IMG/VR virus record: IMGVR_UViG_3300034375_001679
Location: 1 to 37,894 of that record
From: a virus
Reading direction: 5' to 3' (one strand)
Length of the DNA stretch: 37,894 nucleotides
Shown here: in pieces, positions 1,273 through 8,733 of the stretch
Numbering within the stretch: the stretch's first letter is position 1
Layout of the letters: each line of letters begins with the position of its first letter
Notes under the pieces: generated by a model
The model's input: the letters and a program-made list of their open reading frames with translations, nothing else
What the model was told of the DNA's origin: nothing
The model's database searches: none
Position numbers and translations under genes: made by a program

Positions 1273-4200
1273 TTAGGGTTTAACTTCGTTCCACTTCTTG
1301 TTGTACCGGTCGAAGATCAGCTCCTGTTGAGCCGTGATCTCGTCCAGCTTTTCATATCGCACCATTGGATCGATGACGCCGTTATCCTCGAGTAGCTTCT
1401 TCTGCTTGGACAGTTTTCTGAGCTGCTTCTCTGCTTGACTGTGGAAGGTCTCGAACTGGTACAGCTCTCTGCCGTAACGCTCTACAAGTGTCTTGCTTTC
1501 CTCTGCGTCAGCGTCTCTGATCTGCGTTCGATACTGGAGCCACTCGTTGCGAGAGTCGTAATAAGTAACTCGATCCTTGTATTGACTGACTCTAGGGAAG
1601 AACGTGCGGATGATTGGTACGTCGTCAGCCTTCAGGTCTCCGGGTCTGTCATTCAGAGACTTGGTCGCAGTGTCCGCTGCATCATTGAAGAACCTACCAA
1701 CACCTCCGAGCAGGAAATCTAATCCGTGCTGAACTCTATCTGGGTTGACCTCAACGCTGCCCGGGATGTAGTCGTCACCACCACTCAGCTCGGCAATGGT
1801 TTTAGTTGTGCTCTCAATCCAATCAGACGTGCGCCTGCGGGTCTTTTGTGACTTGGGCTTCTGCACCAAGAACGGGTTCTGGGGGATCGTAATGTTCTCC
1901 CCGAAGTAGTTGATATTTGCAGCTTGCTCTAGAGCGAAGTCAGTAACGTCCGGTCCGGCGAGGAAGCCTAGCTTCAGCATTACTGACTCTGACGCATCTC
2001 GGTCATCTGAGACGGCGTGTATACCCTGGGGGTTAAAGTGCCGATCCATAGATGTCAGCAGATCCACACCGACCTGATCTGGACTTTTGAGGTCCATAGC
2101 CAGCTCAGCGCCCAAACGACCTACGTCATCGTAGAAGCCCCATCCATACGCCTTAGGCAAGGCAAAGCCTTGCTCATCACTGATACGGAATAGCATTCCT
2201 GATTTTAGGGCATACTCGTTGTAGTCGAGGTAGGTAGACTCTCCATCCTCATCCTCACCAGACATCCAGATGTTTATCAACGTCCTTGCAAACCCGGCAA
2301 GCACAAGCCCCGCGGCGACCATTCGAGCCTTGGTAAGCTTCTCGCCATCCCTGCCTGACTTCAATACAGCCTCGGCAGTATTCACGTTGCCCTGTATTGC
2401 AGCGTTGAAGAATAGGTAGAAGGTGTCTGTTGCGGAGCTGAGCTCCCCTTTGCGATTGAAGTTAACTGTCAGGTCTTTAGCCACGGTCGCAGCAGTTGTT
2501 CTCTCGACCCCAGATTTTCGTGCGGCAATATAAGTGGACAGCCGGGTAACGTTCTCCATTACCTGATTGAAGTCCTCAACAACCTTGCCTAAATAAGCAA
2601 ACGCTTCTCTAATTTTTCCTCGCTTTATCAGCGTCTCAATGCGGCGGGCTTGCTCATCAATGCTTTTGCTGTAAGCAATGCCGGTAGGAGCGCCGTCGTC
2701 TTTATAGTCCTTAACAAACTGCGCCAGCTCTTTAGCTTCATCTGTCTTGGGCTCATTGCCCCGAGCATCACGCCACAACGCCTTCCACGATGGTCCCCAT
2801 CCTTTTACCACCTCCCAGATCAGGTCCTTGTCTTTCAGCCTGCCGGCACGAGAGTCTTGCTCGGCAAGAATGAAAGCGAGTCCCGTTTGAACGTCTCTGA
2901 TTGGGTTAACCAGTCCCCAGCTTGGGTTGTAGTTGATGATCATGTCGCGACGGAAGTTCTGGAATTCCCGCATAAAGGTCATGATTTGGTTGAACGACTC
3001 AACCTCGGAATTGAATATGCCCACACTGCCAGCCTGGAGGTTTCTGTTCAGCTCCTTATCGCGAATCTCAATGAAGTGGTCCTGCCCGTTGCGCTTTACC
3101 TGTATGTATCGGTGAACCTTGTCGTCATCGGGGCGCATCTCAGAAGCCATCTGGCTTTTGCTCTTCCGCACGCTAATATCGTCTGGCGGCGTTTGGAACG
3201 GGTACTGCGTTGGCGGGTAAACGCTCCACTGGTCAGACTTAAACTTGCTGAGCATCTTCAGTAGACGTTGGGCGATTACATTTTTTTCCGCCCTAATAAT
3301 TTTTGTCTCGCCGTCCACAAACGCATTTAGCAGTGGATTGGCTGGCATGGTTACACGACCCTTCGCCTTAAAGGACTCCTTGCCTGTAACGCTGAAGCCT
3401 TTCGCCCCAGTACCCGCAACCATGTCGCCGTCTTGCTCTAGGGCGGCAAAGCCCTTCAGCGGCACATAGAATTCATACGTGTCTTGCCAGTCCTCTTTTG
3501 TCTCGTCATCCAGCAAGCCCTTGTCAACCATGTTCTGACGCATGTCAGAAAGCATCTCGTAGACCTTGCTTGAGATCTCCTCGAGCGCGTCATACTTGTC
3601 TTCGAGCTTTGCCGTGGCGATCACAGACTCTGCCTCAGAGTCGGTCATGCCCGAACCGGTGTCTTGGAATCGGAGAGGCTCGTTCTCAAGCTTGTCTAGT
3701 CGCTCAGTGATAGATTCGACCGGGCGATCGAGAGCGCCCATTGAGTCCTCAAGTGCTTTGTTGAGGCGATCTATTTGCTCCGCCCTCATGGCTTGCTCGC
3801 GTTCGGCAATGACCCTGTTACGTTCCGGGGCATGCTTAGCCAGCAAGTACAGACCTACCTGTTCACCATCGAGATCTGCCGCCTTCATCATTGCCGCTAT
3901 TGGCTTGATGTAGTCGTTCTCAAATTCTTCGATCTGATTCTGCACCTTGGAGTGCATAAGGTTTTCTGCGTCGTAAGCAGATACTGATGCCGGCATGCGG
4001 TCCATACCGACACTGGCAGCGAGACGATCCTCGAGCTCTTTGAGTCTTCCGTAACGATCGACAAGAGCCTTGCTAAAGCTCTTTGGCATTAGCCTGTTTA
4101 GGCGCTGCGAAAGGTCCCTATCTACAAGGTACTCGTCATCGAGGTTGAATGTGACTTCGTGGGGTGGACTATTGTCCGGTGTTCGCTTGCCCTTTATGTA

Positions 4201-7200
4201 TCTTGGGCGTTCTGCCTCGGGCTGTCCGCCGACATCGGCGTCGTCTTGGACATCAGTTTCTTCAACAGCATAGTCGCTTTCAACTGCTTCTCTTTCTGCG
4301 TACTCGCGGATGAGGGCATCGAGGTTGTCTCTGTTGACGCCATCGGCTTCGTACCAAGGGAATCCTTTGTCATATTCACTTACCTTGAACCCTTTCGGGA
4401 TAATGTTGCGCTTCCGAAGTTTGACTTGATCCAAGAATTCGGAGAACTTTTTTGGGGTGAAACGGTACGGCTTGTTTGACTGATCAGCATACAGGAAATA
4501 CGGGTTGCCGTCAGGGTCTCGGGCGTAGATCGCGCCGTACCTAAACAGGTTCATCTTGCCTTCAGGCGCACCCATGTCGGCATAAGGTGTGTCTGCACCT
4601 CTTGCGTCGTCTAACAGCCCCTTCATCGTTGGGTGTGCAACGACCTGACCTGAGTTCAGAACCCAGCTCTCCCAATGGTATCTGCCTACTGAGCCTTCAT
4701 CTTCTCGACCAAGCCTCCGATAAAGCTCTTTGATGCGCTGGTTGAGAGATTTCTCAAGCGCTTCGTATCGAGCCAGACCGTGCCCCTTGTCGAACTCATC
4801 TGCAATGTCGTCGTAGATAAGCTTGCCGTAACGCCCCGCATCCCACATTGAGTTGAGCTGAATCCGGTCGAGGATGACTACGTCGTCACGCCCGGTCATT
4901 AACATTAAGAACGAGAATACTTTGTTGCCGATTCCGGGGTTGTTGATCATCCCCTGGAACTGACGACGAACATCTACGGTGGAGATTGATCGATTACCTA
5001 CAAGATCGTGCAGCTCCTCCAGCCTGCTTCTGCCGTCTTCAGTGCGCTCAGACATCTTGAGCATAAACTTTGCCCAATCGTTAGCATTGCTTGTGCCAGA
5101 TCGACCGAACGAACCCTCTGGTATGAGGCGTTTTACTGCCTTCTCCCAGCTCTTCACGTCCTGCTCTGTCATGGTGCCATCAAGCGTTTTCTGAATGATG
5201 TCACCTGCGGGGTCATCTTTTGCCCCGGGCATTTTTGTTAGCAGATCAACAAAGCCAGCCTCTTGAGCCGAGGCGGTGAGCATTCTCGACATGATGCCCC
5301 AAAGCATGAGCTTTCCGGTTATGTCGGGCGTTGCTTCCCCTGAGGCATAGACCTCGCCCATCTCTCGAGCGGTTTCTAGCCCCTCCCTAGCTGCCTGTAC
5401 TTGTTGATCAGACAGGCGCGAATGAGTAGCGACCCACGTATCTATGTCGTTGTACAGAGAGATCAGTCCGTGAGGCGGTCGGATCGTAGTGTTACTTCCC
5501 GTAAGATCTCTTTCGAACCTCAGCCATGCGGCAGGTGAGGACAGCGGATCGTCGTGTCGATCGCTCAGCGCCTGAAGAGCAGGTATTTGCTTGGCTGCAT
5601 TCTTGGGATTGATCGCCTTTGTTACGGATGCTTTTCCAGTGGTCTTGCCCCGGGAGTTCTGTAGCAAATACTCCGCGCCTTTCTTGATGAACTTAGGCTC
5701 GGAGGATGCGGGCAGGTAAAGCTCGCCGTCAGCTGTTAGCTCGGAGGTAATTTCTCCGTCTTCCTCCATCTGATCTAGAAGATCACGGAAGTTTGCTTCT
5801 TCCTGTCCCACCTGCTCGGACAGTTGTGCAGCAGATATGCCGTCTTCGGGGATGTTCTGTAGCAGATTGTCACGCAGCTCCTGACGTGGTGCTGGTTCAG
5901 CAGCGGGAGCATTGCGCTGGAGTTTCTCATTGTGCAGCTGGGTAAGCGTAGCTTCAGCTTCCTTCCTGTTGTCAGCAAACGTACCGACAGTGTAAGGATG
6001 GAACATATCAAGCTTAAGCTCTTCTTGATGTTGAGGGTCGAGTACCCAGCCTCTAGCAACCGGGTCTCTGGATATCTGGTACACATCACCATCAGCCATG
6101 GTGACGTTCATTGTGCCGTTTAGGTCGAAGTCTTCAGCGCGTTTAACGCTATCGATTTCTACTGGTAATACTTGTCCTGCACTGTCCCCAGCTTCAGGTT
6201 CGGGCGTTCCGCCCACGCTTTCACTGGCTTGTTCCTCGACAAGGCTAGGTCCGCCAGTTCCTCCAGCTCCTCCTTCGTCTTGAACTTGAACGCCTCCTGA
6301 CTCGGCAGGTGTCCGAACGTCTCGAGGTACTCCTGCACCTTCGGAGACAGGGGTTTCTTGGTTAGCTTCCTGATTCCCATACAAACCTCTTACGTCGTTA
6401 GTTACTAACTGCTCTGCCGGAACAGGGTTAGCGAATATGTCCTCGATTATACTATGCCCAAACGGCAAACTCTTCTGTATCGATCCCTCGTTAGCCACGT
6501 AGGCTGCACCAAGTTGAGCGAACAGCTCCTCTCGTGCGCCATCGAGTACACCTTGGATCTTCTCTGGGTCGCCATTTTGCTTAGCGATGTTGTCGTAAAG
6601 GGCGTCTAGTGGGTACGAAAAGAAGCCAGCTCCTTCTGCGTCAGACTCCCATAGGTCAAAGATTTCCTCGATGGCTCTACCCATAGAGATATCAGGCTGA
6701 CCATCGCCGTCGATGTCTTCTACCTTCATTTTGAAGTGATCGATAGCAGATGAGTAGCCGTTTCTAAAGTCAGCTGCATGCATTACTTCATGCGCTGTAT
6801 TGAAGCGATTGCGGCGAGCTCTCTGCTCGTCATCTGCTCCCTCTAGCAAGTGATCGAACCTCATGCCGATCACACTAGACCTGTCGAGGAAAGCCGCCTC
6901 TGCGTCGTGAGGTATGTCCTCAGTTGAAAGGACGTGAGTGCCTTTCACAAGATCACGAAACTCTTTTGGTACGCCACGCATTGCGAGGTCAAGGTAGATA
7001 GACGCCGCTTCCTCGAGGGCTGGGTTGGCTGTTGGGTCGGTGCTTCCTACAAAGTCGGTGAGACCGGGCAGTTGAACTGTTCTGCCGTCCTCGGTGAGCA
7101 TGGACACAGGACCCCGAGACGGTGTGATATTGAAGTTTATGTCCGCTTCAGTAACGCCTTGAGATGCAAACTCTCCTTCACCCGTTGTTTTGGGAATTGG

Positions 7201-8733
7201 TCCACGCGCAGCAGCATCGTTAAACGACTCGATTTTTTGGCTTAGAGTTTCTGGTGTGCTGACCATAAAGATCTCGCCGCCGAACTCATCTGTTTGCTGC
7301 GTTTCCAGTGGTACTGCACGACGAGTGCCACGATTTACCGACGCATTGATAGCGTTCAGCGCAGAAGATCTTTCTGTGCCCTCGAGCTTTTCAGCCGCTG
7401 CTCTCAGGTCAGCCTCTGTAGCTATATCGTCTTCCATGCCGTCAACAATGAGCTGCTTTTGTAGCGGCACAGGCATGTTGCCCCAGTACAGCATCGGCTC
7501 TGCCGGCGGTCTGTCGTACCCCTCCAGCAAAATGTCCATGCTGGGGTCCTGACCGGGCTGTATTGTTGTTTCCTCAGGGGTAAGCGCGACCGTACCGGGC
7601 GTCGGCTCTGGTGTCGGACCCCCCTCCGGGTCGATAGTTGTCTCTGCTTGGGTCAGCTCAATAACTTTACGACGAGCCTCAGGCATACGATTGATGCGAG
7701 CTTGCTCAGCCTCTTCGCTAAACGGTTCGGGACCCTCGGGACCGGGCTGGTCTGGGCGTCTGCCGCCCACCTTTGTCGCCTGTATTGCGGCACCGCCAGC
7801 AGTTCCGGCAAGAACACCGGATGCAAAGGAGTTGATGTACATGGACTTGGATCGTTCATCTGCGACGATCTCCAAGAACTCACGCTGCTGGTCTTCAGGC
7901 AGGTTTTCTTCTGCCCATGCCACTGCGGCTCTGCCCAAAAACTCCTGAGTAAATTCTGTGAAGCCTTCTACGCCAGCAGCTTTGACCGCCTCACGACCCA
8001 CCGCCAAGACGTAGTCCTTACTCATAAAGACTCGCTCAGCAATGTCGTCGTTAAACTGCTCTAATCCGTCCGATCCAAACATTCGCTTGAATGCTCGCTG
8101 TGGAACGCCAAAACGATCGAGCGCTCCCTGAGCCACACCAACAGCTAGGGCTTTGCCGGGAGCCTCAAGACCGGTTTCTTCATAGATTTCAGCAAAGTTA
8201 GAGGCGGTGTTCTGTGCTGCGCTATAACCAACAAATCCGGCAGCAGCGTCGTAGTTCTTTTGAGTGACCTTTTCTGCAAGACGCTTGCCGATCGTATCAG
8301 CTTCCTGCTCGAGCTTGTTTTTTAGCAGTTTTTTAGTACCAGCTTTTGCCGCAACACCTGCAACGCCGCCACCAACCACATCAGGCACCAGCGTTCCGAG
8401 GGTGTAGCCAGCCCAATCAGTGAAATCACCGAATGAATCTATCTCTTCTACGGAGGTGACATTTGCGCCTACGTTGGCAGCGTCCTGCATTTTCTTGCGG
8501 TAGTAAGCTAGACCTGAATCGACCCACTCCTCATTGCCAATAGCGCTACCGACCGTGGCTTTGAGCGCACCGCCAAGACCTTGGGTTTGGTCGATACCTG
8601 CATCTAAGCCTTTACCGAACTGAGTGTCCGCAAGGATTCCACCCTCAGTCAGCTTGTCACCAAGGTCCTCAGTTTTTTGTTCGGGAAGTTCGGGGGCAAA
8701 TGGAGTTTTGCGACCCAGTACTATGCCAGCCAT
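1273..8733 (-). CDS. Large polyvalent protein, probably ejected with the DNA (2486 residues)
   Basis: The start ATG is preceded by AAGGGG at a good distance. Visible regions are: an N-terminal third with hydrophobic Gly/Ala segments (about 105-135 and 300-325) that could interact with membranes; HEVMHAADF at 648-656, a zinc-metallopeptidase type HExxH motif; a Pro/Glu/Gly-rich linker at about 785-858; a winged-helix-like stretch around 966-1000 (ISAAQLSEQVG); a region near 1230-1400 with GRDDVVILDRIQLNSMWD; charged helical domains; and at about 1900-2120 a segment with NPIRDVQTGLAF, TVNFNRKGEL and LFFNAAIQGN that matches my memory of large-polyvalent-protein domain LPD38. The C-terminus is coiled coil. 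Such proteins are packed in virions and injected into the host, where they bundle several activities. Position at the end of the internal-protein group agrees. A second gene is nested out of frame at 6159-6380. The individual catalytic activity is unproven. Confidence 0.85.
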   Translation of the reverse strand: MAGIVLGRKTPFAPELPEQKTEDLGDKLTEGGILADTQFGKGLDAGIDQTQGLGGALKATVGSAIGNEEWVDSGLAYYRKKMQDAANVGANVTSVEEIDSFGDFTDWAGYTLGTLVPDVVGGGVAGVAAKAGTKKLLKNKLEQEADTIGKRLAEKVTQKNYDAAAGFVGYSAAQNTASNFAEIYEETGLEAPGKALAVGVAQGALDRFGVPQRAFKRMFGSDGLEQFNDDIAERVFMSKDYVLAVGREAVKAAGVEGFTEFTQEFLGRAAVAWAEENLPEDQQREFLEIVADERSKSMYINSFASGVLAGTAGGAAIQATKVGGRRPDQPGPEGPEPFSEEAEQARINRMPEARRKVIELTQAETTIDPEGGPTPEPTPGTVALTPEETTIQPGQDPSMDILLEGYDRPPAEPMLYWGNMPVPLQKQLIVDGMEDDIATEADLRAAAEKLEGTERSSALNAINASVNRGTRRAVPLETQQTDEFGGEIFMVSTPETLSQKIESFNDAAARGPIPKTTGEGEFASQGVTEADINFNITPSRGPVSMLTEDGRTVQLPGLTDFVGSTDPTANPALEEAASIYLDLAMRGVPKEFRDLVKGTHVLSTEDIPHDAEAAFLDRSSVIGMRFDHLLEGADDEQRARRNRFNTAHEVMHAADFRNGYSSAIDHFKMKVEDIDGDGQPDISMGRAIEEIFDLWESDAEGAGFFSYPLDALYDNIAKQNGDPEKIQGVLDGAREELFAQLGAAYVANEGSIQKSLPFGHSIIEDIFANPVPAEQLVTNDVRGLYGNQEANQETPVSEGAGVPRDVRTPAESGGVQVQDEGGAGGTGGPSLVEEQASESVGGTPEPEAGDSAGQVLPVEIDSVKRAEDFDLNGTMNVTMADGDVYQISRDPVARGWVLDPQHQEELKLDMFHPYTVGTFADNRKEAEATLTQLHNEKLQRNAPAAEPAPRQELRDNLLQNIPEDGISAAQLSEQVGQEEANFRDLLDQMEEDGEITSELTADGELYLPASSEPKFIKKGAEYLLQNSRGKTTGKASVTKAINPKNAAKQIPALQALSDRHDDPLSSPAAWLRFERDLTGSNTTIRPPHGLISLYNDIDTWVATHSRLSDQQVQAAREGLETAREMGEVYASGEATPDITGKLMLWGIMSRMLTASAQEAGFVDLLTKMPGAKDDPAGDIIQKTLDGTMTEQDVKSWEKAVKRLIPEGSFGRSGTSNANDWAKFMLKMSERTEDGRSRLEELHDLVGNRSISTVDVRRQFQGMINNPGIGNKVFSFLMLMTGRDDVVILDRIQLNSMWDAGRYGKLIYDDIADEFDKGHGLARYEALEKSLNQRIKELYRRLGREDEGSVGRYHWESWVLNSGQVVAHPTMKGLLDDARGADTPYADMGAPEGKMNLFRYGAIYARDPDGNPYFLYADQSNKPYRFTPKKFSEFLDQVKLRKRNIIPKGFKVSEYDKGFPWYEADGVNRDNLDALIREYAEREAVESDYAVEETDVQDDADVGGQPEAERPRYIKGKRTPDNSPPHEVTFNLDDEYLVDRDLSQRLNRLMPKSFSKALVDRYGRLKELEDRLAASVGMDRMPASVSAYDAENLMHSKVQNQIEEFENDYIKPIAAMMKAADLDGEQVGLYLLAKHAPERNRVIAEREQAMRAEQIDRLNKALEDSMGALDRPVESITERLDKLENEPLRFQDTGSGMTDSEAESVIATAKLEDKYDALEEISSKVYEMLSDMRQNMVDKGLLDDETKEDWQDTYEFYVPLKGFAALEQDGDMVAGTGAKGFSVTGKESFKAKGRVTMPANPLLNAFVDGETKIIRAEKNVIAQRLLKMLSKFKSDQWSVYPPTQYPFQTPPDDISVRKSKSQMASEMRPDDDKVHRYIQVKRNGQDHFIEIRDKELNRNLQAGSVGIFNSEVESFNQIMTFMREFQNFRRDMIINYNPSWGLVNPIRDVQTGLAFILAEQDSRAGRLKDKDLIWEVVKGWGPSWKALWRDARGNEPKTDEAKELAQFVKDYKDDGAPTGIAYSKSIDEQARRIETLIKRGKIREAFAYLGKVVEDFNQVMENVTRLSTYIAARKSGVERTTAATVAKDLTVNFNRKGELSSATDTFYLFFNAAIQGNVNTAEAVLKSGRDGEKLTKARMVAAGLVLAGFARTLINIWMSGEDEDGESTYLDYNEYALKSGMLFRISDEQGFALPKAYGWGFYDDVGRLGAELAMDLKSPDQVGVDLLTSMDRHFNPQGIHAVSDDRDASESVMLKLGFLAGPDVTDFALEQAANINYFGENITIPQNPFLVQKPKSQKTRRRTSDWIESTTKTIAELSGGDDYIPGSVEVNPDRVQHGLDFLLGGVGRFFNDAADTATKSLNDRPGDLKADDVPIIRTFFPRVSQYKDRVTYYDSRNEWLQYRTQIRDADAEESKTLVERYGRELYQFETFHSQAEKQLRKLSKQKKLLEDNGVIDPMVRYEKLDEITAQQELIFDRYNKKWNEVKP
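6159..6380 (-). CDS. Nested small protein, out of frame inside the large polyvalent protein gene
   Basis: The frame encodes 73 residues on the same strand as the surrounding 2486-residue gene, but shifted by one base. AAGAGG (6386-6391) lies 5 bases before the ATG, a near-ideal Shine-Dalgarno arrangement. The product starts MGIRKLTKKPLSPKVQEYLE, continues with an amphipathic, Glu/Lys-rich helical stretch (KFKTKEELEELADLALSRN) and ends with KAWAERPNLKLGTVQDKYYQ. It reads as a folded, charged alpha-helical protein, quite unlike a random shadow frame. The surrounding gene encodes only a Glu/Gly/Pro/Ser-rich linker over the same bases (its residues ~785-858), which is the usual pattern where one frame tolerates another. 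It reminds me of small conserved phage proteins but I cannot name a family, and function is unknown. Confidence 0.68.
   Translation of the reverse strand: MGIRKLTKKPLSPKVQEYLETFGHLPSQEAFKFKTKEELEELADLALSRNKPVKAWAERPNLKLGTVQDKYYQ
6386..6391 (-). promoter_or_regulatory. Internal ribosome binding site for the nested gene
   Basis: The minus-strand sequence AAGAGG stands 5 bases before ATG 6378-6380 and lies within the coding sequence of the large polyvalent protein (codons for Val-Arg-Gly). The complementarity and spacing are as good as those of the standard genes in this cluster, which argues for genuine internal initiation. Confidence 0.6.

Follow-up and report, generated by a model that had tools for sequence, protein, structure and literature searches.

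The window, i.e., the whole stretch of DNA analysed here, is a 37.9-kb virus record in which the large genes lie on the minus strand. One of these encodes a giant protein of 2486 aa, and inside it lies a second, much smaller open reading frame, here called N1. The features of the locus are as follows.

1273–8733, minus strand: outer gene, 2486 aa, putative large polyvalent (virion/ejection-type) protein, assigned from its LPD38 domain, matches to large-phage-protein PHROGs and named relatives
1612–2235, minus strand: LPD38 domain of the outer protein, residues 2167–2374 (Pfam PF18857, E 1.2e-16)
6159–6380, minus strand: N1, predicted nested gene, 73 aa, in the +1 frame of the outer gene, with its ATG at 6378–6380 and its stop codon at 6159–6161
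6386–6391, minus strand: Shine-Dalgarno-like AAGAGG, 5 nt 5′ of the N1 ATG (AAGAGG-TTTGT-ATG)
6390–6392, minus strand: TAA in frame with N1, three codons upstream of its ATG
6427–6876, minus strand: zincin-type metallopeptidase domain recognised by motif (HEVMHAAD ... ExFAQ), immediately preceding the linker in which N1 lies

A first-pass annotation had described a 73-codon, same-strand frame shifted by one base within the 2486-aa gene, and its coordinates, its frame and the AAGAGG-N5-ATG arrangement were all confirmed. The Glu/Gly/Pro/Ser linker that it had placed in the outer frame over the same bases is also present, being rich in Glu, Gly, Pro, Ser and Ala and lying about 50 residues past the ExFAQ motif.

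The outer protein matches PHROGs of large phage proteins of unknown function. Towards its C-terminus it shows homology to proteins from Vibrio, Ruegeria, Burkholderia and Stx phages, among them DC1 gp67 and the BcepIL02 DarB-like protein, and in this it resembles the DarB-like virion proteins of Bcep22-like phages. The DarB-like protein of one such phage, JC1, has been detected in purified virions (PMC9144972). The outer gene's label of putative ejection protein comes solely from this C-terminal homology to LPD38 and DarB-like virion proteins. Like the polyvalent proteins (Iyer et al. 2017, PMC5512222), the outer protein is large and multidomain, and carries LPD38 together with an HExxH metallopeptidase domain (HExxHxxD ... 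ExFAQ). That paper describes zincin-like metallopeptidases in polyvalent proteins, relates them to lethal-factor-type zincins and suggests a role in polypeptide processing. The outer HExxH domain may be of this type, which is offered as a lead; none of the Pfam metallopeptidase models reached the cut-off on this domain, and one gave a hint below it.

Members of the N1 family showed no significant match to named phages, plasmids, Pfam or PHROGs, and no carrier was found among cultured phages in 50,697 records. The best tblastn match, in Alteromonas phage PT11-V19 (E about 1), was dropped, as it falls in a 238-aa ORF. The database search proposed in the first-pass annotation gave no named phage, Pfam or PHROG counterpart to the 73-residue product; its homologues, at the same nested position, came from viral contigs. 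A scan of viral contigs with the nested protein returned three relatives, and a wider alignment extended these to 15 and later 17 loci. All 17 have N1 in an unchanged position and frame within a far larger ORF (1268 to 3321 aa as read, the shortest being cut by contig or locus ends). To avoid circularity, a second search used the outer metallopeptidase segment alone and gave 54 loci, of which 53 are testable (in L033 the contig ends before the site). In 51 of the 53, an N1 homologue follows just downstream, its site and frame unchanged; a profile HMM recovered it with E values from 1e-40 to 3e-6, and L039, whose contig ends inside N1, is counted among the 51. In the other two loci, L077 and L078, that site and frame are occupied by another nested ORF, and an empty site, meaning an outer homologue without any nested ORF, was not found among the 53.

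After identical sequences were collapsed, 44 distinct nested sequences remained, including that of L022 (see below). Protein identity falls to 29–40% among distant members, with conserved residues retained. Further viral scans with N1 subfamilies led back to the contigs already known to have nested N1, and to no free-standing copy. Nearly all carriers with sequence reaching far enough have the metallopeptidase (HExxH with ExFAQ) 34–52 residues upstream of N1; no HExxHxxD pattern turned up in the portions read of L072 (the 220 residues upstream) and L019. L072 also has the candidate that diverges most from other N1 members (6395–6604, E 3e-6), with a good Shine-Dalgarno sequence (GGAGG). Among the named relatives examined, both the ExFAQ motif and N1 are absent. 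In the N4 virion RNA polymerase an HExxH is present and an ExFA motif absent, and a long nested ORF resembling N1 was not evident after the HExxH.

The start codon of N1 is ATG, replaced by GTG in L017 and L035 (a few of the start choices were set by hand), and a suitably spaced Shine-Dalgarno match of 4 nt or more precedes 34 of 37 distinct nested starts, the exceptions being L021, L061 and L065, where it is weak or absent. Other +1-frame ATGs in the same genes have such a match in 589 of 3185 cases (18.5%; Fisher p 1e-21). A lack of a conserved start codon and AAGAGG in relatives, which the first-pass annotation held would speak against a gene, was not what was found; the start and a Shine-Dalgarno sequence are conserved.

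The first-pass annotation had also proposed comparing dN/dS in both frames. Substitutions in close pairs were classed by their effect in each frame in the style of OLGenie (PMC7531306), using our own simplified implementation. With simplified tests and few pairs (10 at the closest cut-off), dN/dS within the overlap was 0.196 for the nested frame (NN/SN; bootstrap 95% 0.14–0.26) and 0.80 for the outer frame (NN/NS; 0.56–1.24), the latter not distinguishable from neutral. The pattern is reversed in the upstream flank, where the pseudo-nested frame gave 0.876 and the outer frame 0.116, and in the downstream flank the values were 0.69 and 0.20. Changes synonymous in the nested frame are fast in the overlap (SN 0.25 versus NN 0.05). 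Rather than ignoring the nested frame, outer synonymous variation collapses over N1: outer third-position diversity is 0.669 in the flank but 0.377 over N1 (41 sequences), and outer fourfold-site diversity is 0.104 over N1 versus 0.617 elsewhere (18-sequence clade). Between the window and L007, identity is 62% for the N1 proteins, 34% for the outer protein across those bases and 31% for the adjacent metallopeptidase. These statistics establish that the predicted N1 protein is under purifying selection in the overlap, and that the outer residues there are under almost no constraint.

The outer frame is open across N1 in the viral carriers. When nested-synonymous codons were drawn at outer codon usage, it stayed open in 0.16% of trials; under a milder control, in which each gene's own codons were shuffled, it stayed open in 29%. 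Both the N1 sequence and the openness of the outer frame thus look maintained, while the outer residues themselves are close to free. As the outer frame is near-neutral and N1 is constrained, the Glu/Gly/Pro/Ser linker is largely an out-of-frame shadow of N1.

Start codon, Shine-Dalgarno sequence, frame, stop codon and protein sequence are kept in 44 distinct sequences, and this, with the frame-specific selection, places N1 beyond chance. It is very probably a genuine overlapping gene that is initiated independently. The homologues, the conserved start signals and the selection in the nested frame also support the earlier proposal that a small independent protein is encoded inside the large gene.

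How the overlap arose is a separate matter. One origin compatible with independent initiation is that N1 was once a small gene lying between two others and that the outer protein became fused across it by read-through, the linker being secondary. This is a serious candidate, at somewhat under even chances. It agrees with the near-neutral outer frame over a constrained nested one, with the two unrelated nested families at one site, and with a free-standing homologue of N1; on the other side, the unfused arrangement was not found in any relative, and codon usage, which does not favour the nested frame, is silent as to which frame is older. The single clear free-standing homologue (L084/L085, G085:C7:181863-182114) is in a bacterial genome (E 3e-6 in that genome), near a tRNA-Lys gene and an ORF that, judged by sequence, resembles a phage integrase, suggesting an integrated element. 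Its existence fits a gene older than the linker, for which one homologue is thin evidence. Homologues of N1 are thus found both at the nested position and, in this one case, outside it; a lack of both kinds was among the things that the first-pass annotation held would speak against a gene. Used as a query, the free-standing homologue retrieved nothing. De novo overprinting of N1 within the linker is still to be reckoned with as an alternative origin.

A further locus outside the viral contigs, L022 (5983–6189; DTZW01000192.1, at a contig end), comes from a Gammaproteobacteria MAG and carries the N1 homologue and the outer linker frame, with the rest of the outer gene missing. The locus is either a relic or a chimera produced by assembly. 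Among some 670 genomes sampled from the MAG's own class and phylum, only L022 and one free-standing homologue turned up.

N1 could instead be part of a selfish insertion. In the ShiLan case an out-of-frame HNH endonuclease gene sits in a phage methylase gene (PMC11855218), and the logic there is the same: a small gene in another frame, with the DNA staying open in the frame of the host gene. That an unrelated nested ORF takes the place of N1 in L077, L078 and L088 would also suit such elements. However, neither Pfam, PHROGs nor fold searches gave N1 a match to an HNH or other homing nuclease, and about 73 residues is short for one. Unlike the ShiLan homing elements, N1 lacks an endonuclease, is near-universal at its site and under purifying selection, and leaves no empty sites among the loci seen; it has diverged in step with the outer gene. 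An insertion of this kind is therefore improbable.

Still less likely is a programmed +1 frameshift, by which N1 would form the C-terminal end of a truncated metallopeptidase–N1 fusion. The nested frame is indeed open for 13–39 codons before the start in some relatives, but an in-frame stop codon lies only 0–3 codons before the start in the window, L010, L016, L019, L041 and L069, which argues against a frameshift origin; in the window, the TAA at 6390–6392 is so near the ATG that almost no room is left for one. The spacing of the Shine-Dalgarno sequence is also conserved, while the segment before the start is not.

Alternate-frame ORFs can be conserved passively through the protein they overlie, and the outer gene provides an instance: an ORF at window positions 4194–4379 (minus strand) has tblastn matches in many relatives and overlies a conserved outer stretch. 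It and a second same-strand ORF (5775–6092) were rejected as genes, their alternate-frame similarity being read as a passive shadow. The probability that the nested frame is open given the outer amino acids averages 0.22, and this too would suit a chance open frame at N1. Yet the constraint at N1 sits in the nested frame and not in the outer one, the nested identity exceeds the outer identity, and the Shine-Dalgarno sequence and start are conserved. The reversed dN/dS and the collapse at fourfold sites refute a chance frame of this kind, which is given almost no weight. An equally negligible chance attaches to a conserved RNA element in place of a protein: this would account for synonymous change being so strongly suppressed in the outer frame, but variation follows the nested codons (nested-synonymous changes being fast), and start, Shine-Dalgarno sequence, stop codon and conserved residues are kept among members as distant as those above.

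As an independently initiated gene, N1 would be made from the mRNA of the giant gene by internal initiation at its own Shine-Dalgarno sequence and ATG, giving a small helical protein of about 73–80 residues, with the outer frame held open for read-through of the giant protein and its residues there nearly free. An AlphaFold model of N1 shows compact helices (mean pLDDT 80, pTM 0.59). Foldseek gave no confident match in PDB or BFVD, and neither homology nor fold matched N1 to a known protease inhibitor. The nested distances track those of the metallopeptidase (r 0.85) and of the outer N-terminus (0.81) more closely than those of the outer C-terminus (r 0.57), and physical linkage or adjacency alone could yield the correlation between N1 and the metallopeptidase.

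The product might act on or with the adjacent metallopeptidase, e.g., keeping the peptidase inactive or aiding folding while the giant protein is being synthesised. A partner or inhibitor of the metallopeptidase is the best guess at a function, made tentatively from the fixed position of N1 after that domain, the fact that an unrelated gene can take its place there, and the way in which its divergence follows that of the metallopeptidase. N1 may have other roles in infection.

Same-strand, internally nested viral genes are known, such as E within D of phiX174, and the +1 frame is the commonest internal arrangement (PMC8227390). N1 is similarly a complete predicted gene inside another, on the same strand and in another frame, with both frames coding for protein. 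It differs from phiX174-type cases in that its outer frame is the nearly neutral one. In addition, N1 sits in a gene of about 7.5 kb from a dsDNA phage, and its family is diverse, with identities as low as 29%, and includes a free-standing homologue. What is unusual, then, is a small and widely conserved gene that sits in a giant dsDNA-phage gene and bears the selection while the host frame drifts. No description of the N1 family was seen among the papers that literature searches brought up. In the text of PMC5512222 the word 'overlapping' is absent and 'reading frame' appears once, in reference to small neighbouring ORFs. Gene callers easily drop nested ORFs of this type and N1 has no Pfam or PHROGs match, so phage annotation seems to lack the family altogether; N1 is almost certainly real, and a gene of the sort that annotation pipelines pass over. 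This gives a concrete explanation for one low-complexity linker of a giant phage protein, as the shadow of another gene.

N1 also offers a test case for hidden genes in the linkers of polyvalent proteins, and two other sets of nested ORFs point that way. The first is the second nested family, which shares the site and frame of N1 (L077, 6344–6511; L078, 1503–1667; L088, 5001–5165), the last being one extra carrier obtained by scanning with this family. Its members are about 55 aa long and share the motif LESKFxPQEL...NPKLAQxAL; those of L077 and L078 are 53% identical and preceded by Shine-Dalgarno sequences, and the family has no detectable relation to N1. It is conceivable, as a speculative extension, that the linker after the metallopeptidase is a standing site for +1-frame accessory genes (N1, and the unrelated family in L077, L078 and L088) encoding dedicated peptidase inhibitors or chaperones, so that an enzyme and its regulator would share one mRNA, one coded inside the other, and the linker would be mainly the unread side of a regulator gene; the second set, N2, would then make the linkers of giant proteins a general hiding place.

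N2 is another +1-frame nested candidate ORF, located in a different outer linker and carried by one clade (L051, L062, L047, L049, L035, L045, L056 and L060). Its dN/dS is about 0.47, against about 1.1 for the outer frame (four pairs, with the start codon uncertain), and outer fourfold diversity dips across it. In L051, for example, it occupies positions 6572–6751 and shows the motif FVVPxxL...YPDASxEELxxxLKYS.
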